Of a DNA stretch of 64,000 nt, positions 31,177 through 43,597 are shown piece by piece (positions within the stretch are counted from its first letter, which is position 1; each line of letters opens with the position of its first letter). Below the pieces are notes generated by a model, which searched no databases, had not been told where the DNA came from, and saw nothing but the letters and a program-made list of their open reading frames with translations. Origin of the DNA: Desulfurobacterium atlanticum (GTDB lineage: Bacteria > Aquificota > Aquificia > Desulfurobacteriales > Desulfurobacteriaceae). Made by a program: the position numbers and the translations under genes. Location of the stretch: assembly GCF_900188395.1 (NCBI RefSeq), contig NZ_FZOB01000003.1, positions 1 through 64,000 on the forward strand, written 5' to 3'.

Positions 31177-31350
31177 TCTCTCTCCTTGTTGAGAATATTT
31201 TGCATTTAGCTTTAAATTTATGCTTTTCTTAGAAGTTTGCAGGATGGATTATCCTACATTATGGGGGAAATGTTCAACAGCTTAAGATATAATGTGAGTG
31301 GTAAAATGGCGATACGATTTAGGAATTTGCTTTTTATTGGGGGAATTGAA

Positions 31351-34300
31351 ATGCCCGAACATAACGATTTGACATTTTTTACTAATGAGGATGGAAGAAA
31401 GCTTATAGACAGATTTAAAACTTTATTTAAAGATACTAAGGAATTGAATATTATTGTGGGATATTTTTACCTGTCCGGCTTATATCAACTTCAAGAAGAG
31501 CTTGAGAATGTAGATAAAATAAGAATTATTGTTGGGATGCAGGCGGGTAAAGAAGTATTTGATCTTGTGGAAAAAGCAAAAAGTATAGAAGAATCAAAGA
31601 ATAGCTATCTTGAAAACGTAGTTGAGGAACTTTCAAACGATGAAAATGATTCCTTTGAAAAAGAGAAAGCTATAAGAAAATTTTTAGAGTGGATACAAAG
31701 TGGTAAGTTGGAAATAAAACAGTATCCACATTCACCTCTTCATGCCAAGCTTTATATTTTTAGAAGTAGAAGTGGGATAGATGTTGGAAGAGTAATTACA
31801 GGGTCTTCAAATTTCACAATTTCAGGTCTTAAAGAGAATCTGGAATTCAATGTGGAACTAAAAAATAGGGCTGATGTTGAATTTGCCATTAGTAGATTTG
31901 AAAAACTGTGGGAAGATTGCAAGGATATTTCAGAAGATATTATAAAAACAGTTAAGGAGAAAACTTATCTTAACGATACCCTTTCTCCTTATGAGCTTTA
32001 TTTAAAATTTCTTTATGAGTTTTTTGGAGAGCAGATCGATTTTGATAAAGAGGATGAATTTTTATTTCTTCCTAAAGGATTTAAAAAACTTAAATATCAG
32101 CTGGAAGCTGTTGTTGATGCAGAATCCAAAATTAAAAAGCATGGCGGTGTATTTCTTTCAGATGTGGTAGGTCTTGGAAAGACCTTTATAGCTTCAATGT
32201 TAGTGGCTAAATTGAGGGAAAAAGTATTGGTGTTTGCTCCTCCTCATTTGACCGAATACTGGGAGGATACGTTAAGAGAGTTTAATGTGGCAGCTAAGGT
32301 GATTTCATCCGGGCGTTTAAGAAATTTAGATGTTGAGTATTTTAAAGACTATTCCATAGTTATTGTAGATGAAGCTCACAGATTCAGAAATGAGGAAACA
32401 AAAAGTTATGAGACTTTGCACAAAATATGTAGAGGAAAAAAGGTAATTCTTTTAACAGCAACACCCTATAACAACAAGCCATCCGATATTAAAAGCCAGT
32501 TGCTTCTTTTCCAGAATAGGTATAAATCCACCATTCCCGGCGTTACAAATCTTGAAGAGTTTTTCAGTGCTCTGGAAACTAAAATAAAGCAAGTTGACAG
32601 GAAAAAAAATCCTGAGAAGTTTAAAGAGGTTCTTAAAGAGTGCGGTCAGGAGATTAGAACCAGAATTTTAAGATACGTTATGGTAAGACGAACAAGAAAG
32701 GAAGTGGAGAAATTTTTTAAAGATGACCTGAACGCTCAGGGTGTTTCCTTCCCAAAATCCAGAGACCCTGTAAAAGTTTACTACGAACTGGATAAAAAAC
32801 TTGATAGTTTATACAATAAAACTATAGAAATAATAAAAAGTCTTTCATACGCAAGGTATCGTCCTGCTCTCTACCTTAAAACCAAACTTAAAGAAAATGA
32901 CCCGATATTTATTTCTCAGATGAATCTGTCCGGTTTAATGAAAACGCTTCTGTTAAAGCGTCTTGAAAGTAGTTTTGAAGCATTTAAGAAAAGTCTTGAT
33001 AGATTTTTAAAATCCCATGAGCAGTTTTTAAATATGTATGAAAAGAAAGGCGAAATTTATATAAGTAAGGAAGTTGATGTTTATGAATTAATTGACGATG
33101 ATAATTTTGATGAAATCTTTAAACTTGTTGAGCAAGGCACTGTCCAGAGTTACAGCAAAGAGGAGCTGCGTCCAGAGTTTTATGAAAATCTCAAGGCTGA
33201 TACAGAAGCAATAAGAGAATTACAAAACGAATGGTATAAAGTAGAAGATGACCCAAAGTTGGAAAAATTTTTAAATCTGCTTGAGTATGAAGATTCCACT
33301 CTATCTAAAGCGAAAAAACTTCTAATATTTACCGAATTTTCCGATACAGCTGAATATCTCGGGAATAGATTAAAAGAAAGCTTTGGAGATTGTGTTTTGG
33401 TTTTCTCTTCTAAGTCAAATCCTTCGGTGAGAAAGAAAATCATTGAAAACTTTGATCCAAATGCAAAAGTTAAAAGGGATGATGTAAAAATTCTTATTAC
33501 AACGGATGTTCTTGCAGAAGGGATAAACCTTCACCGTTCAAACATTATAGTTAATTACGATATTCCGTGGAATCCAACAAAAGTTTTACAGAGGGTAGGA
33601 AGAATTAACAGAGTAGGCACAAGATTTAAAGAGATTTATGTTTATAACTTTTTCCCTATAAGCGTTGCAGAGAAAGAGCTGGGACTTGAAGCGGCAGCAA
33701 TAGCGAAGCTTCAAGCTTTTCATCAGGCTCTCGGGGAGGATGCGAAATATTTAACAGAAGAGGAAGAGGTTGATGCCCATGGTTTGTTTGAAAGGATAAA
33801 CACTATAAAAGAAGATGAAGAAGATGAATCATTCTTCCGGTATATTAAGCTGCTTAGAGAAATCCGGGAAAATAATCCTGAGCTGTTTGAAAAGATAAAA
33901 AGTCTTCCTAAAAAAGCCCGCTCTGGAAGGAGATTTAAAAGAGAATTACTGATAACGCTTTTTAAAAAAGGAAATCTTAAAAAGATTTATGTTGCTTATG
34001 AAGATAAGCAATCTCAGGAAATAGACTTTTTAAAAGCAATTGAGTTGCTGGAAGTTGGACCAGAAGAGAAAAACCTTACAATTCCGCTTGAAAATTATTA
34101 TTCTCTGTTAGAGAAAAATATAAGTGCTTTTAACATTTCCTTAAATGAAGAAAAAAGTAAAGAGAAATCCAGAAAAACAGCGTCAAGAGCTGAGAAGTAT
34201 CTTATAAAAGAACTAAAAGCTCTTAAAAACTATTTCAAAGATAAAGAAACGAAAAAGCAGGTTATAAAAGTGCTTGGCTTTATAGATACAGGAAGCATAC

Positions 34301-34476
34301 CTAAAAGGACTTTAAAGGACTTAAGCAAGAAGTTTAAAGAAAACAGCGAACCTGAGGTAAAAATTGAAATTCTGAGAGAATTTTTAGAAAAAATTTCCTT
34401 TAAAGAAAAACAAACAGAAAATTCTTACGATGATTCAAATGTGGAAGTGATATTGTCTCAATATTTTGGAAGGTGA
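31351..34476 (+). CDS. PLD-nuclease/SNF2-helicase fusion, defence type
   Basis: A protein of 1041 residues. An N-terminal phospholipase D-type domain has HSPLHAKLYIF..(HxK, about residue 129) and GSSNFT. A superfamily 2 SNF2-like helicase follows: GVFLSDVVGLGKT (Walker A, near residue 268), IVDEAHRFRN (DEAH box, near 338), LLTATPYNN, and VLQRVGRINRVG (motif VI, near 745). The C-terminal 250 residues are charged and helical. I choose ATG 31351 (GGGGGAA site) over the in-frame ATG at 31237. Such fusions travel with adenine methylases in restriction and DISARM-like loci; the methylase here is two small genes away. It opens the defence island. Confidence 0.85.
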   Translation: MPEHNDLTFFTNEDGRKLIDRFKTLFKDTKELNIIVGYFYLSGLYQLQEELENVDKIRIIVGMQAGKEVFDLVEKAKSIEESKNSYLENVVEELSNDENDSFEKEKAIRKFLEWIQSGKLEIKQYPHSPLHAKLYIFRSRSGIDVGRVITGSSNFTISGLKENLEFNVELKNRADVEFAISRFEKLWEDCKDISEDIIKTVKEKTYLNDTLSPYELYLKFLYEFFGEQIDFDKEDEFLFLPKGFKKLKYQLEAVVDAESKIKKHGGVFLSDVVGLGKTFIASMLVAKLREKVLVFAPPHLTEYWEDTLREFNVAAKVISSGRLRNLDVEYFKDYSIVIVDEAHRFRNEETKSYETLHKICRGKKVILLTATPYNNKPSDIKSQLLLFQNRYKSTIPGVTNLEEFFSALETKIKQVDRKKNPEKFKEVLKECGQEIRTRILRYVMVRRTRKEVEKFFKDDLNAQGVSFPKSRDPVKVYYELDKKLDSLYNKTIEIIKSLSYARYRPALYLKTKLKENDPIFISQMNLSGLMKTLLLKRLESSFEAFKKSLDRFLKSHEQFLNMYEKKGEIYISKEVDVYELIDDDNFDEIFKLVEQGTVQSYSKEELRPEFYENLKADTEAIRELQNEWYKVEDDPKLEKFLNLLEYEDSTLSKAKKLLIFTEFSDTAEYLGNRLKESFGDCVLVFSSKSNPSVRKKIIENFDPNAKVKRDDVKILITTDVLAEGINLHRSNIIVNYDIPWNPTKVLQRVGRINRVGTRFKEIYVYNFFPISVAEKELGLEAAAIAKLQAFHQALGEDAKYLTEEEEVDAHGLFERINTIKEDEEDESFFRYIKLLREIRENNPELFEKIKSLPKKARSGRRFKRELLITLFKKGNLKKIYVAYEDKQSQEIDFLKAIELLEVGPEEKNLTIPLENYYSLLEKNISAFNISLNEEKSKEKSRKTASRAEKYLIKELKALKNYFKDKETKKQVIKVLGFIDTGSIPKRTLKDLSKKFKENSEPEVKIEILREFLEKISFKEKQTENSYDDSNVEVILSQYFGR

Positions 34477-34795: not shown

Positions 34796-35063
34796 ACTTT
34801 TATTCTCCGAAGTTGCTAAAAAAGACCTTGAAAAATTTACCATTGATGAGAGAATTTTTATTGCCGAAAAGTTGAAATACCTCGCAGAAAATTTTGAACT
34901 TCTTAAACAGACAAAGAAAGTTAGAAAACTCAAAGGAAGCGGTAAATTTTACAGGTTTGTAATTGCCAGAAAAATAAGAGCTATTTTTGAAGTTAAAAAC
35001 GAAGAGATTGTTATTCTGATGTTGAGAGTGGGGAAACGGAAAGATGTCTATAGAGATTTATGA
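34788..35063 (+). CDS. RelE/ParE-superfamily toxin
   Basis: A 91-residue basic protein with the RelE/ParE fold pattern: YKLLFSEVAKKDLEKF at the start, then RKLKGSGKFYRFVIARKIRAIFEV and IVILMLRVGKRKDVYRDL at the end. The R-x-G-K-R-x-x-V/I-Y ending is close to RelE members whose Arg and Tyr act on mRNA at the ribosome. It overlaps the antitoxin by 8 bases and the methylase by 20 bases, which couples toxin and methylase translation. Confidence 0.82.
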   Translation: MYKLLFSEVAKKDLEKFTIDERIFIAEKLKYLAENFELLKQTKKVRKLKGSGKFYRFVIARKIRAIFEVKNEEIVILMLRVGKRKDVYRDL

Positions 35064-38000
35064 TACAGCAGTAAAAACGCTAATAGAAAATCCATTCAAT
35101 AAATCAAACTTTGAAAAATTCTTGAGAACTGTTTTTGAATCGGCAGATTTTGAAGAACGATTTGAAATAACAGATTTAGAATGTCCTGAGAGATTTAAGG
35201 AGCTTATTAAAAAAGCAGAAGTTCTCGGAGAATATGAAGATAAAGAAAGTAATAAAGTTCTCTTCCTAACAGTTGAACTTGGCAGAGGGTCAACTCTTGA
35301 AAGAGCAAGGAAAACCCAAAGAGACTTCGTAGCAAGGATTATAGAGGAATACAACGCTGAAGCTGCCATAGTAGCCTTTTACGTTTCCGGGTTTGAGAAC
35401 TGGAGACTTTCCTTTGTTAGAGCGGTTTATCACTTTAATGAAGAAGGAAAACCTGTTCAAAAACTAACATCCTATAAGAGATATTCTTTTCTATTGGGTG
35501 AAGGAGAACCTTCCCATACAGCCTATAAACAGCTTTCTACGTTAAAAGAAAATCCTGACCCTGATATTGATAGTATAGAAAACACATTCAGTGTAGAACC
35601 TGTTACCAAAGAGTTTTACGAAGAGCTAAAAAAAGTCTTTGAAAAAATGTGGAAAAGAATATACGAAAACAATAAGCATATTTTCAGAAGAGATCCTTCA
35701 TACGATCTTCCAGATGAAGAACTAAAAGTAGAAGTTAGAGCTTTTACCAAAAGGCTTATAGGAAGAATTCTATTTCTCTACTTTGTTCAGAAAAAAGGTT
35801 GGTTAGGAGCAGAAAAGGGAAGTTCTGTTAAATCTGGGGATAAAAAGTTCTTAGTAACCAGGTTTTACAAACTTAAAAAAGAAGGGAAGAATTATTATAG
35901 AGATTTATTAGAAATTCTATTTTTTAAAGCTCTTAATACACTACCTCAAAGACCAGGAGATTTTTATAGAGAAGAGTTGGATTGTCAAATACCTTTCTTA
36001 AATGGTGGATTATTTGAAAGAGATTATTCAGAGGATCTCTATATTGTAATAGATAACGACTTATTTGAAGAGTTATTCAATGTCCTTGAACGCTTTAACT
36101 TTACTATTAAAGAGGATGAACCTTACGAAAAAGAAGTTGCAGTTGACCCTGAAATGCTCGGTAAAATCTTTGAAAACCTTTTGGAGGAGAACTATAGGAA
36201 GGGAACCGGAGCTTTTTATACTCCAAGAGAAATTGTTTACTACATGGCAAGAAAGAGCCTGATTTATTATTTGAATAGAAAAATAAAGGTTCCTGCTGAG
36301 TATATTGAAGCTTTGCTTATTCTTGAAGATCTTGATGGGTTAAAAGATAAGTTTCCGAAAGCGGGAGAAGAAATAGTTAACAAGAAAAAAGAAATCGTAT
36401 CGGCAATAAAGAATTTGAAAATTGTTGATCCTGCCGTTGGAAGTGGTGCTTTTCCTATGGGTTTACTCTTAGAAATGGTTAGACTGATTAGAATTTTAGA
36501 AGAGGACATAGATGAGTACAAATTAAAAAAAGAACTTATCCAGAATTGCATTTATGGAGTGGATAAAGATCCTTCTGCCGTTGATATTGCAAGGTTGAGA
36601 TTTTGGTTGTCTCTAATAGTTCACCACGAATTGGAAGAAATAGAGCCATTGCCAAACCTTGACTATAAACTGATGCAGGGGGATTCTCTCGTTGAAGAAA
36701 TAGTTTTGGGAGATGTTTCCATTCCTCTTGACTTTGGAGAGTTGTTAATTAAAAAACAACTCTTGAATCCTGAGCAACAAATACTCTTTAAAGCTGATAA
36801 ACCTGAAAAAATAACACTTTCTCTTCAGATTAAAGTTATTAACGATAAACTAAAAGAGTTAGAAGAACTTCATGAAAGACTTTTCAATACTTGGAATCCA
36901 ACAGCAAAAAGAAAATTAAAAGATGAAATAGAAAGAATAGAAATGGAAATTATAGAGACTAAACTTCTTGATTTAGAAAAGAAGTACAAGAGAGAAGCTG
37001 AAGGTATTCAGCAAAGGTTATCTTTCTCAAACATTAAGAAATTAGAACAGAATAAATTTAAAAAACAACTTGTAAATTGCTATGTAAGGTTAGAAGCCAT
37101 TCAAAACTTCAGAGAAAATTTAAGAAAAAAATATAGAGATTATTTCCTTTGGGAACTTAATTTTCCAGAAGTTTTCTTTGAAAAAGAAGGTTTTGACATT
37201 GTAGTAGCTAATCCTCCATACGTTGGAGAAGCTGGACATAAAGATTTGCTTAAACGGGTGAGATTGACTTCTTTTGGGAAGAAATATGGTCAAGGGAAAA
37301 TGGACTATTTCCATTTCTTTTTGCAGAAAGCTATTCATAGATTATCTAACAGAAACTCCATTATTTCGTTTATTACAACCAACTATTATTTCCAGGGAGC
37401 TGGAGCAAGTAAGCTAAGAGAATCTATAAAGAAAAATACAGATATCCTGGAACTTATAGATTTCAATGAACTTAGACTATTTGAGTCAGCAACTGGACAA
37501 CATAATGCAATAATTTTCCTTGGGAAACCTAAAAAAGGTTGGAATACTCTCTATATAAAGTTCCTATTAAGAGAACCTAACGTTGAAAAATCACTAAAGA
37601 TTATTGAGAAAGTACTTTCAGGAAAAATTGAAGATGATCACGAGAAATTGGTTTTAAAGTTTAAGACAAAATATGTTTTTGATAAAAAAGACTACATAGT
37701 TCCATTAGGGGGATTATTTGAAACAATTTTAAAGGAAATGGAGAAAGGAGCTATTTACCTTAAAGACAAAGATTTAGCTCAAGGAATTGTAATGCCTCAA
37801 GATTTTGTTACTAAAAAGCATTTAAAAATTTTAGGTGATGGTGTTAATTTAGGAGATGGAATATTTGTCCTGTCGCAGGAAGAACTTGAAAGATTAAATC
37901 TAACAGAGAAAGAATTTAAAGAGATTATTAGACCGTACTACACTACAGAAGAATTAGATGTTTACTGTAGAAATTCTAAGAATAGATACTGGATTATTTA

Positions 38001-38739
38001 CACTACAACAGAAAAAATAAAGCAAATCCAGGAATATCCTAATATTAAGAAGCATTTAGACAAATTTAAAAGAGTTATAACTTCTGACTTTAAACCATAC
38101 GGTTTACATAGAGCGAGAGAAGAATACTTTTTCAAAGGTGAAAAAATAATATCCCGTAGGATGACCAAAAGACCTCATTTTACCTATACTGACTTTGACT
38201 GCTATGTATCTCAAACCTTCTTCGTGATCAAGCCTCGCAGTGAAGCTTTAAGAGATGTGAATCTTAAGTATCTTACTTTAATTTTTAACTCTAAGCTTGC
38301 CTACTGGTGGTTTTATCACTTTGGAAAACGGAAGGGAGAACAGCTACAAGTTGACAAAGAACCTCTTATGGCATTTCCAATAAAGATTGTTAAAGAGCAA
38401 GATGAGATTTCAAAATTGTTTGACATTATTTGTTGTATTAAGAAAGCAATAACTGGAACTTTTGAAAAGCATGTTTATGACTTTTTCGTTGAAATAGTGG
38501 ATGCACTAATTTATGAAATATACTTCAGTGATGTTATGAATAATGAGTATCGCATAAGGAATCTTTTGTTTGAAACTTTGAATAGCTTTAAAACTGGATT
38601 TTCACTAGAAGACATCTTGAAATTTTACTATGAATTAAATAGTTCTAAAAGTCCAATAAGAAACAGAATCATTCTAATGAAACTCCATGATCCTATTGTT
38701 TCTACCATGGAGAGGAAGGAGAAGTGGGGTATAGGTTAG
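35044..38739 (+). CDS. Eco57I-type adenine-specific DNA methylase, defence-associated
   Basis: A 1231-residue class I methyltransferase. The N-terminal 200 residues resemble the leading part of Eco57I/type IIG proteins. Motif I is IVDPAVGSGAF near residue 461, preceded by GTGAFYTPREIVYYMA; motif IV is VVANPPYVG near residue 720, the N6-adenine type. The C-terminal 350 residues look like a target-recognition region, ending with VDALIYEIYF and DPIVSTME as in relatives. A PD-(D/E)XK nuclease is not evident, so cutting may come from the PLD helicase. It overlaps the toxin by 20 bases. Either type IIG-like restriction or a DISARM-related system. Confidence 0.85.
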   Translation: MSIEIYDTAVKTLIENPFNKSNFEKFLRTVFESADFEERFEITDLECPERFKELIKKAEVLGEYEDKESNKVLFLTVELGRGSTLERARKTQRDFVARIIEEYNAEAAIVAFYVSGFENWRLSFVRAVYHFNEEGKPVQKLTSYKRYSFLLGEGEPSHTAYKQLSTLKENPDPDIDSIENTFSVEPVTKEFYEELKKVFEKMWKRIYENNKHIFRRDPSYDLPDEELKVEVRAFTKRLIGRILFLYFVQKKGWLGAEKGSSVKSGDKKFLVTRFYKLKKEGKNYYRDLLEILFFKALNTLPQRPGDFYREELDCQIPFLNGGLFERDYSEDLYIVIDNDLFEELFNVLERFNFTIKEDEPYEKEVAVDPEMLGKIFENLLEENYRKGTGAFYTPREIVYYMARKSLIYYLNRKIKVPAEYIEALLILEDLDGLKDKFPKAGEEIVNKKKEIVSAIKNLKIVDPAVGSGAFPMGLLLEMVRLIRILEEDIDEYKLKKELIQNCIYGVDKDPSAVDIARLRFWLSLIVHHELEEIEPLPNLDYKLMQGDSLVEEIVLGDVSIPLDFGELLIKKQLLNPEQQILFKADKPEKITLSLQIKVINDKLKELEELHERLFNTWNPTAKRKLKDEIERIEMEIIETKLLDLEKKYKREAEGIQQRLSFSNIKKLEQNKFKKQLVNCYVRLEAIQNFRENLRKKYRDYFLWELNFPEVFFEKEGFDIVVANPPYVGEAGHKDLLKRVRLTSFGKKYGQGKMDYFHFFLQKAIHRLSNRNSIISFITTNYYFQGAGASKLRESIKKNTDILELIDFNELRLFESATGQHNAIIFLGKPKKGWNTLYIKFLLREPNVEKSLKIIEKVLSGKIEDDHEKLVLKFKTKYVFDKKDYIVPLGGLFETILKEMEKGAIYLKDKDLAQGIVMPQDFVTKKHLKILGDGVNLGDGIFVLSQEELERLNLTEKEFKEIIRPYYTTEELDVYCRNSKNRYWIIYTTTEKIKQIQEYPNIKKHLDKFKRVITSDFKPYGLHRAREEYFFKGEKIISRRMTKRPHFTYTDFDCYVSQTFFVIKPRSEALRDVNLKYLTLIFNSKLAYWWFYHFGKRKGEQLQVDKEPLMAFPIKIVKEQDEISKLFDIICCIKKAITGTFEKHVYDFFVEIVDALIYEIYFSDVMNNEYRIRNLLFETLNSFKTGFSLEDILKFYYELNSSKSPIRNRIILMKLHDPIVSTMERKEKWGIG

Positions 38740-38885: not shown

Positions 38886-39348
38886 CTCAAAACACAGAAA
38901 AAGAATATCAAGCAGAAGTTTTTGTTAAAGGGAAATTATTAGGATTTGAAGTTCCTAATGAAGATAGGGGTGAGATATACATAATTGTCAGCTTTCCAAA
39001 AAAAGCTGGATGGAAATTAAGGAAGATAAGGATGTTTATTTTTTTAGAGTAGTTGGAAGGGTCGAAGTTACTAATACTAATAAAAAAGAGCACAATAAAA
39101 AGGAATGGAGATCTGGAGAAATAAAGATCCACAAAAATTTTCTTTTTATGAAAAACAATAGATATGTTTCTTTCAAGATCCCTTTTAAATCTAAAAATAT
39201 CTTTAATATCCCACGCAACAGTAATATTTCTCTAATTTTTTCTTGGAAACCAGAAAATCTTGATAGTCCTGATAGTAGAGTGATAATAAGAATAACCTCT
39301 AAAGATGATTTAGATAAAGATCTTAAAAGTGTACTTTGGATGGGATAA
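38882..39348 (+). CDS. Split beta-rich protein with a -1 slippery heptamer
   Basis: From ATG 38882 an open frame runs to TAG 39052 (56 residues); a second frame, open from before ATG 39010, runs to 39348 (112 residues from that ATG). The two join by a -1 shift at A AAA AAA (38998-39004), in the correct phase for the canonical X-XXY-YYZ heptamer, giving one product of 155 residues. Alternatively the gene is broken, or the base count of the A run is wrong. The sequence is rich in alternating hydrophobic and charged residues (beta strands) with no recognised domain. It ends 1 base before the SIR2 gene, so all three genes form one unit. Confidence 0.55.
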
Positions 39349-39349
39349 T

Positions 39350-41056
39350 ATGAAAACTCTCTTCATCATAGGTTCTGGCTTTTCCGTTAATCTTGGGTTA
39401 TTAACGACAGAAAGAATTGGAGAAGCTATTGATATTATGTGTGATGATTCTCCTTTGGAGGAAAGATTAACAAGACTTCAAGAGAAACTATCCAGAGAAA
39501 GAATCAGTAATCTTGATATATCCCATTTGAAGGATGTCTTCCATATTCTTTTAGATACAGATAAAAAATCTCGTTCCATTAGAGATGTTGAGGATTTACA
39601 AGAGAGAGCAATAAGAAAAATTGTTAGAGCTTATATTGATTCTTTTCCTGATGGAGATGGAAAAGCATTTTTTCATTACTTAAAAATGATGCCTGAAAGG
39701 ATAGACTGGATTGCTTTTAAAAATCTTTATAGCCTCTATAAGAATCAGAAGAAGTTGCATAATGAAAAACCTTCATTAGTTGAATTTCTTACCTTGCTTT
39801 CAAAGGCACAGGCTTATGGTATTGCACTTCCTATACAAGATAACTTCATCCACAGGAATAATAAGAATCTGATAACTTATATGCGTTCTTATAATGTTTC
39901 AGGAGCTTTTAACTTCTATAGGTATTTCTTTTTCAAAATCTTTAAGTTGCTTCTACAGAAACCAGTTGAGGCCAAAGTTGCGAAGAAGTACTACTTCTTT
40001 TTCAAAGATATTTTAAGCGAATATAGAAATATCCCTGACGATTCTTTAGAAAAGTTAACTAACAGAGACTGGTTCACTTTACCTGTTAGGTTTCTCACCT
40101 TTAATTGGGATCCTTTTCTCCCTTTTATTCTGTTCAAAGTTAACAGAAATATCAATTATGAAGAAGAAAATAGAGCACTCGAATACGATTTAATCCTACA
40201 GTTTTATACTGACATTGGTGTTTCTGGTCCAATTATTTATCTTTCTGAATCTAAAAATTCTTCTAAAGGTTATCATTTGGCAACTGATGATATGGCGTCT
40301 CAAGTAAACTATTTAACAAAAAGAAGTTATACTGAGAAAACAAAATTTCTATCCAATGTTGTATATAGGCTAACGAAACTACATGCAGTTCATGGTCTCT
40401 TTAATCTTCGCATGTGTCCTCATTGTCATCAGGCATTTTTTATAATGCCCACACGCATAAGAGATACTGATATTTATACACTAAAAGGTGTTCAAGACAT
40501 ATTCCTGTCCGATTTAATACCTGATCCAAGAGATTTCAAAAAAGTGGTAAGCAAGTACAAAGGGAGATACTTCTATGTACCTTATAAGTCAGGAAAACCC
40601 GATATGCTTTTCTGTCCAATTTGTGAACATCCTACTTATTTTGAAGATATTCCTTTGTCAGTTCAAACTATATTCAAACTTGATGAACCTGACTTTCTAA
40701 AGAAAACGAAATTAAAGGCTTTTACAGAGTTTATAAAAGCTGACCATATAGTAGTAATAGGTTACTCCTTTCCACAAGATGACCTGTTAAATAACTATCT
40801 TTTGCAACTTCTTTCTATTTCTCCTGAAATAAAGGACAGAAAGAAAAAGAAAATCACCGTGATTATTTATAATTCCTCTTTCCAAGATAAAGTGTGGTAT
40901 AAATTTAGTGAGGTAGAAAAGGTAAAAGATAGTTTGGAATTAAATATCGACTTCCTTAAGAACTTTTTTAAAGAAAAGAATATTCGAATTTCTTTTCTTG
41001 GCTTTCCAGATATCTTAAAAAGAGTAAGATATGAAGAAATAATAAACTTTAGTTAA
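39350..41056 (+). CDS. SIR2-like NAD-binding protein with zinc knuckles
   Basis: A protein of 568 residues. FIIGSGFSVNLG at residues 5-16 is the NAD-binding GAGxS loop of SIR2; LTFNWDPF near residue 250 matches the T-x-N-x-D element; KLHAVHG near 344 supplies the H-x-H-G catalytic histidine; CPHCHQ (355) and CPICEH (421) are two Cys pairs of the zinc site; VVIGYSFPQDD near 468 is the final G-Y-S-x-x-D. The middle 200 residues are helical and unlike deacetylase sirtuins. SIR2-like proteins in defence islands destroy NAD on infection; that role is inferred. ATG 39350 is preferred over 39329. The E2-like gene follows at 4 bases. Confidence 0.8.
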   Translation: MKTLFIIGSGFSVNLGLLTTERIGEAIDIMCDDSPLEERLTRLQEKLSRERISNLDISHLKDVFHILLDTDKKSRSIRDVEDLQERAIRKIVRAYIDSFPDGDGKAFFHYLKMMPERIDWIAFKNLYSLYKNQKKLHNEKPSLVEFLTLLSKAQAYGIALPIQDNFIHRNNKNLITYMRSYNVSGAFNFYRYFFFKIFKLLLQKPVEAKVAKKYYFFFKDILSEYRNIPDDSLEKLTNRDWFTLPVRFLTFNWDPFLPFILFKVNRNINYEEENRALEYDLILQFYTDIGVSGPIIYLSESKNSSKGYHLATDDMASQVNYLTKRSYTEKTKFLSNVVYRLTKLHAVHGLFNLRMCPHCHQAFFIMPTRIRDTDIYTLKGVQDIFLSDLIPDPRDFKKVVSKYKGRYFYVPYKSGKPDMLFCPICEHPTYFEDIPLSVQTIFKLDEPDFLKKTKLKAFTEFIKADHIVVIGYSFPQDDLLNNYLLQLLSISPEIKDRKKKKITVIIYNSSFQDKVWYKFSEVEKVKDSLELNIDFLKNFFKEKNIRISFLGFPDILKRVRYEEIINFS

Positions 41057-41060
41057 TGAA

Positions 41061-41582
41061 TTGAAAGGCCTCATTAATATCAATAATATTGACTGTTTCG
41101 AAGTTGAAATTGAATTTAATAGAAATTTCCCGCGAAGTGTGCCTGTTGTAAAAGAGATAGGAGGAGATATCCCCAGAGATATGGATAGACATATAGATAA
41201 AGAGGGACGTTGCTGTTTAACTATCCCTTCCATAATAACAGAAGAATTAATGCGTGTTCCCAGTATATTAAATTTCATGGAAAAATTTGTAGAGCCATTT
41301 TTTGCCAATCGGCTGTATTACGAAAAGACAGGAATGTGGTTATCTGGTGAGTATAGCCATGGGAAAAGAGGAATTCTAGATTTTCTTACAGAAAGACTCT
41401 TTATAAAAAGAAAAATTGCTGCCAAACTTCTGGAATTCGGTTGCAAGTTTAGAAAAAAATCTTATCTGATTAATTGGAACAAACCATGTCCTTGTGGTTC
41501 CGGAAAGGTGCTGAAAAAGTGTCACAAAAAAGAAATTTTGGAGATTATAAAGTTAGTAAAGTTAACAGAAAGAATCTGCTAA
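41061..41582 (+). CDS. Putative E2/UBC-like protein with SEC-C zinc motif
   Basis: A protein of 173 residues, probably starting at TTG 41061, 4 bases after the SIR2 stop. The first 60 residues read like the core of an E2 ubiquitin-conjugating fold: FEVEIEFNRNFPRSVPVV (strand, then F-P-x-x-x-P), followed by DRHIDKEGRCCL, close to the H-x-N-x-x-G-x-x-C-L around the E2 catalytic Cys (here residue 50 or 51). The N-terminal helix of E2 is short or missing. The C-terminus carries a SEC-C knuckle, CPCGSGKVLKKCH near residue 144. No E1 or JAB gene is near. The E2 call is from motif wording only. Confidence 0.5.
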   Translation: MKGLININNIDCFEVEIEFNRNFPRSVPVVKEIGGDIPRDMDRHIDKEGRCCLTIPSIITEELMRVPSILNFMEKFVEPFFANRLYYEKTGMWLSGEYSHGKRGILDFLTERLFIKRKIAAKLLEFGCKFRKKSYLINWNKPCPCGSGKVLKKCHKKEILEIIKLVKLTERIC

Positions 41583-41801: not shown

Positions 41802-41978
41802 ATGGGAAAGATAGTCATAGAACTTGACGAAAAGGTAAATTTACAAATAAAAGCTAAAACCTTGGAAGAAGCTATAAGAAAGCTCATCAAACAGGTAAAT
41901 TTAACTGGTAAGTTTAAAAGTGTCAGGCTAAAGACTAAAGATTTCAAGTTTAATAGGGAAGAGGCAGAAAGTAGATGA
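41802..41978 (+). CDS. VapB-type antitoxin
   Basis: A 58-residue protein beginning MGKIVIELDEKVNLQIKA, with a short helical middle (TLEEAIRKLIKQV) and a basic end. I choose ATG 41802 because of the GGAGGAAC site; the in-frame ATG at 41730 is in the leader. It overlaps the PIN toxin gene by 4 bases (ATGA). The DNA-binding fold is not clear. Confidence 0.65.
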   Translation: MGKIVIELDEKVNLQIKAKTLEEAIRKLIKQVNLTGKFKSVRLKTKDFKFNREEAESR

Positions 41979-42397
41979 AAAAAGTTTTTGTTGATACGAA
42001 TGTTCTTATCTACGCTTATTCTGAGGATGAACCAGAAAAAGCGGTCGTATCGCAAAAGATAATTGTTGAAAACAATAGTATTACTTCTGTTCAGGTTTTA
42101 AATGAATTATCAAACGTTTTGTATAAGAAATTCAGGAAGAGTGAAGATGAAGTTGTTTCGGTTATTTTAGAAATTACTGAGCTTCTTGAAGTAGTTCCTG
42201 TAACATTAAGCACAGTTCTAAAAGCTCATGAAGTAAAAAGAAGATACAGGTACAGCTATTATGACAGTCTAATAATTGCATCAGCTCTGGAGAATAATTG
42301 TGAAATACTGTATACAGAAGATATGCAACATAATCAAAAAATTTCGGAAAATTTACATATAGTTAATCCTTTTAGAGGAGAATCAAAATACCTTTAA
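41975..42397 (+). CDS. PIN-domain toxin, VapC family
   Basis: A 140-residue PIN nuclease: KVFVDTNVLIYAYS at the start gives the first Asp, VLNELSNVLYK a Glu, and YSYYDSLIIASALENNCEILYTEDM gives the two late Asp residues. All four acidic residues of the active site are present. VapC toxins cut tRNA or rRNA. Start ATG 41975 overlaps the antitoxin stop. Confidence 0.88.
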   Translation: MKKVFVDTNVLIYAYSEDEPEKAVVSQKIIVENNSITSVQVLNELSNVLYKKFRKSEDEVVSVILEITELLEVVPVTLSTVLKAHEVKRRYRYSYYDSLIIASALENNCEILYTEDMQHNQKISENLHIVNPFRGESKYL

Positions 42398-42439
42398 TAG
42401 TCAGCAATAAACATTTATAAGGCAGAACTTCTCTACAAG

Positions 42440-42613
42440 TTGCACCGGGCTTCTGAATGTGTAAGACTATTTGAAACCAAGTATGGAAAAACTTTTGAGG
42501 AATTTGAAAGAGAGCTAAAGTCATCACCTGAAAATTTTGAGGCTTGGGATGACTATATGGAATGGAAAGCATGCATAAAAACCTTAGACACTATTAAAGA
42601 AGAGGTTACGTAA
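42440..42613 (+). CDS. Small helical protein preceding MNT
   Basis: A stretch of 57 residues from TTG 42440 to TAA 42613: helical and aromatic (ECVRLFETKYGKTFEEFE, ENFEAWDDYMEWKACIKTL). It is too regular to be noise, and ends 2 bases before the nucleotidyltransferase gene. No ATG is present; the same frame is open back to about 42402, so an ATT or ATA start or a lost start is possible. It may be an accessory or second antitoxin piece. Confidence 0.5.
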   Translation: MHRASECVRLFETKYGKTFEEFERELKSSPENFEAWDDYMEWKACIKTLDTIKEEVT

Positions 42614-42615
42614 AG

Positions 42616-42924
42616 TTGAAGGTCAGAAGGACAGGAAAAACTCTTCAAGAGATAATTCAAATTTTAAAGGAACACCAGGAGGAGCTCAGAGAAACGTATA
42701 GGGTTAAACATCTTAAGGTTTTCGGTTCCTACGTTAGGGGTAATCAGAAGGAAGAGAGTGACCTTGACTTAATGGTTTCCTTCGAAGAGACTCCTACCCT
42801 GCTTGAGTTTATTGACCTTAAAGAGTACCTGGAGGGTATAACCGGAGTAAAGGTAGATTTAGTTACAGAAGAGGGTATAAGCCCTTATATAAAGCCGTAT
42901 ATTGAGGAAGTTGAGGTATTGTAG
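42616..42924 (+). CDS. MNT-family nucleotidyltransferase (antitoxin)
   Basis: A 102-residue minimal nucleotidyltransferase. VFGSYVRGNQKEESDLDLMVSF near residue 37 holds the G-S-x-x-R-G and D-x-D motifs, and VDLVTEEG near residue 82 gives the third acidic residue. In HEPN-MNT pairs this protein adds AMP to the HEPN toxin and silences it. The start is probably TTG 42616. Its HEPN partner is reduced to a stub just downstream. Confidence 0.82.
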   Translation: MKVRRTGKTLQEIIQILKEHQEELRETYRVKHLKVFGSYVRGNQKEESDLDLMVSFEETPTLLEFIDLKEYLEGITGVKVDLVTEEGISPYIKPYIEEVEVL

Positions 42925-42990
42925 TTGAAGGAAGCAGAAGCATACCTAAAGCACATTCTTCAGGAATGTGAATTTTTAGTGCTTATGTAG
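42925..42990 (+). pseudogene. HEPN toxin remnant
   Basis: Directly after the MNT stop, a TTG starts 21 codons reading KEAEAYLKHILQECEFL and then a stop. This matches the first helix of HEPN (DUF86-like) toxins, which normally run about 110-140 residues. No continuation is open in any frame before the MazE gene, so the toxin is truncated and the MNT is orphaned. Confidence 0.55.
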
Positions 42991-43056
42991 TTTTCTGAAA
43001 AAAATCCCTTGTTTACTCCATGGTATTTTATACATAAATCAATATGGAGAAAGAAG

Positions 43057-43293
43057 ATGCTTACTAAGGTTCAAAAATGGGGAAACAGTCTGGCTGTAAG
43101 AATTCCCTCAGCGTTTGCTAAAGAAATTGGTCTTTGTCCTGATACGGAAGTGGAGTTAAAACTTGAAGATAACAAGCTGGTAATTATTCCTAACAAAAGG
43201 AGGCAGTTAGAAGAGTTGTTAAAACAGGTAACTCCTGAGAATCTACATAGTGAAATTGATTGGGGTGAAAAGAGTGGAGAAGAAGAGTGGTAA
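43057..43293 (+). CDS. MazE/AbrB-type antitoxin
   Basis: A 78-residue protein with the swapped-hairpin AbrB fold: LTKVQKWGNSLAVRIPSAFAKEIGL at residues 2-26 followed by VELKLEDNKLVIIP, a textbook MazE N-terminus that binds operator DNA. The acidic C-terminus (EIDWGEKSGEEEW) is the toxin-binding tail. Start at ATG 43057 after GGAGAAAGAAG. It overlaps the MazF gene by 20 bases. Confidence 0.9.
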   Translation: MLTKVQKWGNSLAVRIPSAFAKEIGLCPDTEVELKLEDNKLVIIPNKRRQLEELLKQVTPENLHSEIDWGEKSGEEEW

Positions 43294-43597
43294 GTACATT
43301 CCTGAAAGAGGGGATATTTTATGGTTATACTTTTCACCACAAGCAGGGCATGAACAAGCCGGAAAAAGACCTGCTATATGCTTATCTCCCAAACTTTATA
43401 ATGAAAAGACGAACTTAGGTTTATTCTGTCCGATTGAAGTTTCTCTACCGGCTAATTGTCCTGTAAGAGGTGTTATTCTTGCAGATCAGATTCGTAATTT
43501 GGATTGGAATATTAGGAAGGTATCGTTTATAGCAAGGGTTTCTGAAGATACTTTGGAAAGGGTTTTGGAAAAGATTCAATTGCTTTTATTCTATTAG
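43274..43597 (+). CDS. MazF/PemK-type endoribonuclease toxin
   Basis: A protein of 107 residues: YIPERGDILWLYFSPQAGHEQAGKRPAICLSP has the family's G-D-x-x-x-x-x-x-P-x-x-G-x-E-Q-x-G-x-R-P-A block with catalytic Arg, and FIARVSEDTLERVLEKIQLLL the closing helix. It cuts mRNA. Start is uncertain: GTG 43274 lies at the usual distance before the conserved block, while an earlier ATG at 43250 would add eight residues. Confidence 0.9.
   Translation: MEKKSGKYIPERGDILWLYFSPQAGHEQAGKRPAICLSPKLYNEKTNLGLFCPIEVSLPANCPVRGVILADQIRNLDWNIRKVSFIARVSEDTLERVLEKIQLLLFY

Follow-up and report, generated by a model that had tools for sequence, protein, structure and literature searches.

The single E2 of short type II CBASS is reportedly the subject of Yan et al. 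2024 (Nat Microbiol, 10.1038/s41564-024-01684-z, cited in PMC12657218). For short type II CBASS, one E2 and the conjugation of cyclase to cyclase have been proposed (PMC11153139, on the basis of other work). Cap2 of long type II CBASS is an E1-E2 fusion whose UBC-like E2 conjugates the C terminus of the cyclase (PMC10097602). In intact members of the short type family, the thioester Cys of the E2 would accept the C terminus of the cognate cyclase and pass it to lysines, as operon structure and published work suggest. This conjugation would presumably activate cyclase signalling. The SEC-C motif carried by these proteins is a zinc-binding knuckle.

A gene related to this family lies in a 64,000-nucleotide stretch of Desulfurobacterium atlanticum DNA (the window). 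It belongs to a known E2 family but is truncated, and it amounts to neither a working CBASS nor a new ubiquitin system. Its features are as follows.

41061..41582, plus strand: fragment of an E2 (UBC-like) gene that lacks its 5' part and carries a SEC-C motif; 173 aa from a TTG; PADLOC PDLC00872
41211-41213, plus strand: codon of Cys51, a variable position, Cys in only some of 22 homologues
41214..41216, plus strand: codon of Cys52, putative catalytic Cys, invariant in 22/22 homologues (UBE2W alignment)
41478..41525, plus strand: SEC-C zinc knuckle CPCGSGKVLKKCH, residues 140-155 (Pfam PF02810)

It is clear that this ORF is a genuine E2 homologue, with a match far beyond chance. PADLOC CBASS E2 models match nearly all of it (E = 1.4e-40 to 1.8e-23), the best being E2 model PDLC00872 (1.4e-40, profile positions 31-195 of 216). 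Pfam SEC-C (PF02810) is matched at E 1.7e-5, with 25 bits against a cut-off of 20.4. Pfam UQ_con scores 0.071, under its cut-off, so the E2 part would be overlooked if Pfam were used alone. A profile built from six members of the E2 family finds human UBE2W (2a7l, 2mt6) in the PDB at about 5e-5, matching around the active-site Cys, and many eukaryotic E2s with weaker scores. UBE2W is a remote, eukaryotic homologue that, unlike the window protein, has no SEC-C. An earlier note, made from the letters of the DNA, had proposed an E2/UBC relative fused to a SEC-C knuckle, and the PADLOC, UBE2W and SEC-C matches bear this out. The E2-core words, SEC-C pattern and TTG start that it listed are all present: NFPRSVP, DRHIDKEGRCCL and CPCGSGKVLKKCH, with H44...C52-L53 and SEC-C residues C143/C145/C154/H155.

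Homologues were gathered from plasmids, genomes of the same phylum, a scan of genome contigs and 395 genomes of the phylum of one full-length relative, L028. Five residues are invariant across 22 of them (H44, C52, H100, C143 and C154), and all five are intact in the window copy. In the SEC-C motif, C143 and C154 are each found in 22/22 and C145 in 21/22. The earlier note had suggested checking whether one of a Cys pair is invariant. One is: C52 is present in every homologue and, in the alignment with UBE2W, falls on the active-site Cys (the HICLS cysteine of "SNGHICLS"). The pair as such is not conserved, as Cys51 varies, and the numbers 50 and 51 given to it should be 51 and 52, counting TTG as residue 1. 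The second Cys is thus the active-site candidate and the E2 assignment stands.

The key anomaly is at the N terminus, where the suspicion that the E2 helix is short or missing proved right. The window copy enters its best E2 model only at position 26-31 of 216. Intact relatives start at 2-8, and for ten E2s of other genomes the match spans profile positions 2-8 to 194-214. The first 25-30 or so E2 residues are gone, and the C-terminal tail is about 20 residues short. The ORF starts at the residue aligned with residues 26-27 of L028, and judged by that alignment and the predicted structure of L028 the window copy lacks alpha1, beta1 and half of beta2. It is not a complete E2 domain with alpha1 and beta1. 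Could the N terminus lie in another frame, or beyond a frameshift? An in-frame stop (TAA, 41043-41045) closes the E2 frame just 5' of the TTG, and tblastn with the ten E2s detected nothing of the N terminus in the preceding DNA, whatever the frame, which together rule this out. The DNA there is SIR2 coding sequence shared with another genome, G118 (see below). No Shine-Dalgarno-like sequence precedes the TTG at 41061, the best being 2 of 6 matches. In DNA of 34% GC the reading frame has stayed open over 173 codons, with the five family-invariant residues intact. This points either to recent decay or to persisting selection, with some use for the short form, and it is the chief doubt about the remnant reading given below.

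Structure prediction says little about the fold. The AlphaFold model of the window E2 is poor, with a pTM of 0.26 from only four sequences, which is not proof of misfolding. The model of full-length L028 reaches a moderate pTM of 0.54. It is predicted to run alpha1(3-12)-beta1(16-19)-beta2(24-30)-beta3-beta4, with block confidence of 86-92 over residues 1-30 and weak confidence over the remainder. Its top Foldseek matches are VPS37A, FANCL, Ubc9, a bacterial E1-E2-Ubl complex and Atg10, mostly UBC-like, none of them at E <= 0.001. UEV and RWD folds lead these matches and the SEC-C motif is complete in the window copy. Perhaps, then, the domain is used in the UEV/RWD manner, in an inactive or E2-like binding protein that serves as decoy or regulator by way of its SEC-C knuckle. 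However, the fragment still has its catalytic Cys and the two invariant His, whereas a UEV typically loses the Cys, and the truncation removes core strands. This makes a binding role highly unlikely.

Intact relatives have a characteristic setting. We compared 21 loci in addition to the window (L020 and L027 are close relatives), and PADLOC calls were made for representative cyclases. In 19 of the 21 a nucleotide cyclase gene immediately precedes the E2, in 15 cases a CD-NTase and in 4 a class III Pycsar-type cyclase. Short type II CBASS is built in this order, so a SEC-C E2 is not unusual in bacteria. The earlier note had held that a stand-alone E2 tied to a zinc knuckle would be, but short type II CBASS has just such an E2, and several PADLOC models describe it. 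Patatin-like or SAVED effectors often adjoin these loci. The E2s of short type II CBASS (PDLC00872/865/871) share with the window copy its profile family, catalytic Cys/His, SEC-C and pre-truncation size class. The window copy differs from them in having lost the N-terminal helix and strand and the C-terminal tail, and in having a SIR2-like gene upstream and no cognate CD-NTase. Cap2 also has a UBC-like E2 (PMC10097602), but the window locus has neither an E1 domain nor Cap3, and SEC-C does not figure in the Cap2 description consulted.

The remaining two loci have no cyclase upstream. In L021 (3893-5630, Runella plasmid pRUNSL03) an intact SEC-C E2 lies downstream of an MBL-fold gene. Further downstream in L021 are more MBL-fold genes and a serine protease. 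In L024 (4051-5525, a Carnobacterium maltaromaticum plasmid) the N terminus of the E2 has been lost to an IS30 element, the cut lying close to the residue at which the window copy is cut. L024 is a parallel case for the truncation: both have an E2 body with SEC-C, nearly the same start residue and no cyclase. It differs in that the cut is made by an IS30 transposase gene, with an S-4TM effector gene next.

A further observation concerns the Pycsar-type loci, where a SEC-C E2 comes after a membrane effector-like gene and a class III cyclase gene (L004 6422-8543; L056 3397-5585; L057 3450-5606; L058 4460-6614). These operons suggest that ubiquitin-like control reaches past CBASS. No report of a Pycsar operon carrying an E2 turned up in the open-access literature, an absence that is not proof of novelty.

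Phages are another place where such E2s were sought. Single-protein searches of viral and genome collections gave no close relatives, and none in phage records. A three-member alignment did pick up 11 loci on viral contigs. Those inspected match only the SEC-C motif or chance stretches, in unrelated proteins (a deformylase and small SEC-C ORFs), and were rejected as phage E2s.

The cyclase expected beside such an E2 was not detected in this genome. No CD-NTase was found by tblastn in the window, nor any remnant of one near the E2, and tblastn for SAVED, patatin or related effectors within the window gave chance-level matches only. The genome itself (99.7% complete) has no match to the SMODS family, in a search whose positive controls worked, and none to a CD-NTase protein query, which had no positive control. 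The place directly upstream of the E2, taken by a CD-NTase in type II CBASS, is occupied here by a SIR2-like gene.

39010..39348, plus strand: gene for a small protein, preceding the SIR2-like gene and matching no family above cut-off
39350..41056, plus strand: SIR2-like protein gene with GSGFS, NWD, HG, CxxC...CxxC and GYSFPxDD in sirtuin order; not a CBASS partner
41052..41062, plus strand: junction; SIR2-like stop at 41054-41056, E2 TTG at 41061, homology to G118 ending at 41051

The order of the sirtuin motifs is kept in six SIR2-like homologues. No SIR2 family profile in Pfam, NCBIfam or PADLOC matches 39350..41056, nor is there a relative among solved structures, so the name is a putative one given from motif order. 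The DNA from 39356 to 41051 is 90.7% identical to a gene in G118, which belongs to another genus of the same family, and both flanks are unrelated. This gene is mobile. G118 and four other genomes have it without an E2 behind it, so a recurrent SIR2-E2 pair is ruled out (0/5 relatives carry an E2). Similar-sized small ORFs stand upstream of it in related genomes. The small variable protein and the SIR2-like protein, with its zinc-binding CxxC pairs, form a two-gene module (window 39010-41056; L015, L016, L018 and L019). This module is scattered over the phylum in unrelated places and has no name in Pfam, NCBIfam or PADLOC. At the junction we found only chance-like short repeats when looking for repeats, terminal inverted repeats or an IS scar, and a scan for promoters and terminators gave no excess over shuffles.

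What if the short E2 is functional in an operon with the SIR2-like gene? In this hypothetical scenario it would be co-translated and would conjugate the SIR2-like protein or another host protein, regulating an NAD-linked abortive response without a cyclase. The two genes share a strand, the gap between the SIR2-like stop and the TTG is only 4 nt and could permit translational coupling, the frame is open, and the catalytic and zinc residues are intact. The intact E2 behind the MBL-fold gene of Runella indicates that non-cyclase partners exist. However, none of the five further SIR2-like loci from the phylum carries an E2, alpha1 and beta1 are gone from the window copy and there is no Shine-Dalgarno sequence. 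The SIR2-like protein ends in EIINFS, without the [KR]P[WY] tail of E2 partners (see below), which makes it harder still to see it as a substrate of the E2. We therefore regard such an operon as unlikely.

Another possibility is that the truncation is an artefact of annotation or assembly, the gene starting farther upstream or a contig join being wrong, with a normal CBASS operon present. The TTG start is unusual and the assembly is in 23 contigs, which would fit. However, the TAA at 41043-41045 shuts the frame just upstream, SIR2 homology extends to within 5 nt of the SIR2-like stop, and two queries of the 99.7% complete assembly give no CD-NTase. An artefact of this kind is very improbable.

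The surroundings of the fragment are those of a defence island, with a GC content of about 0.32 compared with 0.38-0.40 in the flanking genes.

31237..34476, plus strand: PLD(HKD)+SNF2 helicase (PADLOC C3a139 HKD+Snf2 6.2e-51; Pfam Helicase_C, PLDc_2)
35044..38739, plus strand: Type IIG-like restriction-methyltransferase (Pfam Eco57I 6.2e-34; PADLOC REase_MTase_IIG 2.9e-95)

Beside the island (41975-43597) are toxin-antitoxin-like genes, named by eye.

41975-42397: PIN-domain-like ORF
42616-42924: MNT-like small nucleotidyltransferase ORF
43250-43597: MazF-like ORF

The ORF at 41061..41582 is probably what remains, without its 5' part, of a SEC-C-type E2 that belonged to a short type II CBASS operon, and it lies at a recombination junction in the defence island. 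Most likely, recombination set the SIR2-like gene beside the body of the E2, and the cyclase and the 5' end of the E2 were lost. The fragment retains the catalytic Cys, the His and the zinc ligands, and it probably neither folds nor acts like the original enzyme. The window gene serves mainly as a warning that an isolated E2-SEC-C call is neither a working CBASS nor a new ubiquitin system when it lacks the N terminus and the cyclase.

The comparison of E2 partners yielded a second result. The protein directly upstream of an intact SEC-C E2 has [KR]P[WY] in its last 14 or so residues in 18 of 20 cases (L004, L005, L006, L007, L020, L021, L022, L023, L025, L027, L028 and L051-L059). Examples are ...VKPWCRS and ...DPKPWFKQ in CD-NTases, ...LNRPWLKRS and ...LSKPYFY in Pycsar cyclases and ...NAKPWQRG in the MBL-fold protein of Runella (L021). 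The two that miss are L023 (ISPWSR) and L059 (PRQY). In a separate search, none of 12 related cyclases without a SEC-C E2 has the motif. The difference (18/20 vs 0/12) has a Fisher p of about 4e-7, a figure that ignores the relatedness of the cyclases and was computed after the motif had been seen on the first set. Five of the 12 comparison cyclases (L060, L070, L071, L073 and L074) have a shorter E2 without SEC-C (PADLOC PDLC00862/863/864). The cyclases before this shorter E2, CD-NTases and a Pycsar cyclase, have HxxxG tails, one of them with an extra residue.

The identical type of tail on unrelated folds argues for a tag that is read by the E2. It seems fairly likely that this C-terminal tag is portable and is what stand-alone SEC-C E2s read. 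In that case conjugation by E2s would be a control module that can be transferred and is found outside CBASS too, and the shorter E2 subfamily seems to be paired with HxxxG. This comparison of tails matters more than the window gene and is the part worth following. If it is true, the substrates of SEC-C E2s would be predictable from sequence across unrelated folds, and ubiquitin-like control would include Pycsar cyclases and perhaps MBL-fold proteins as well.
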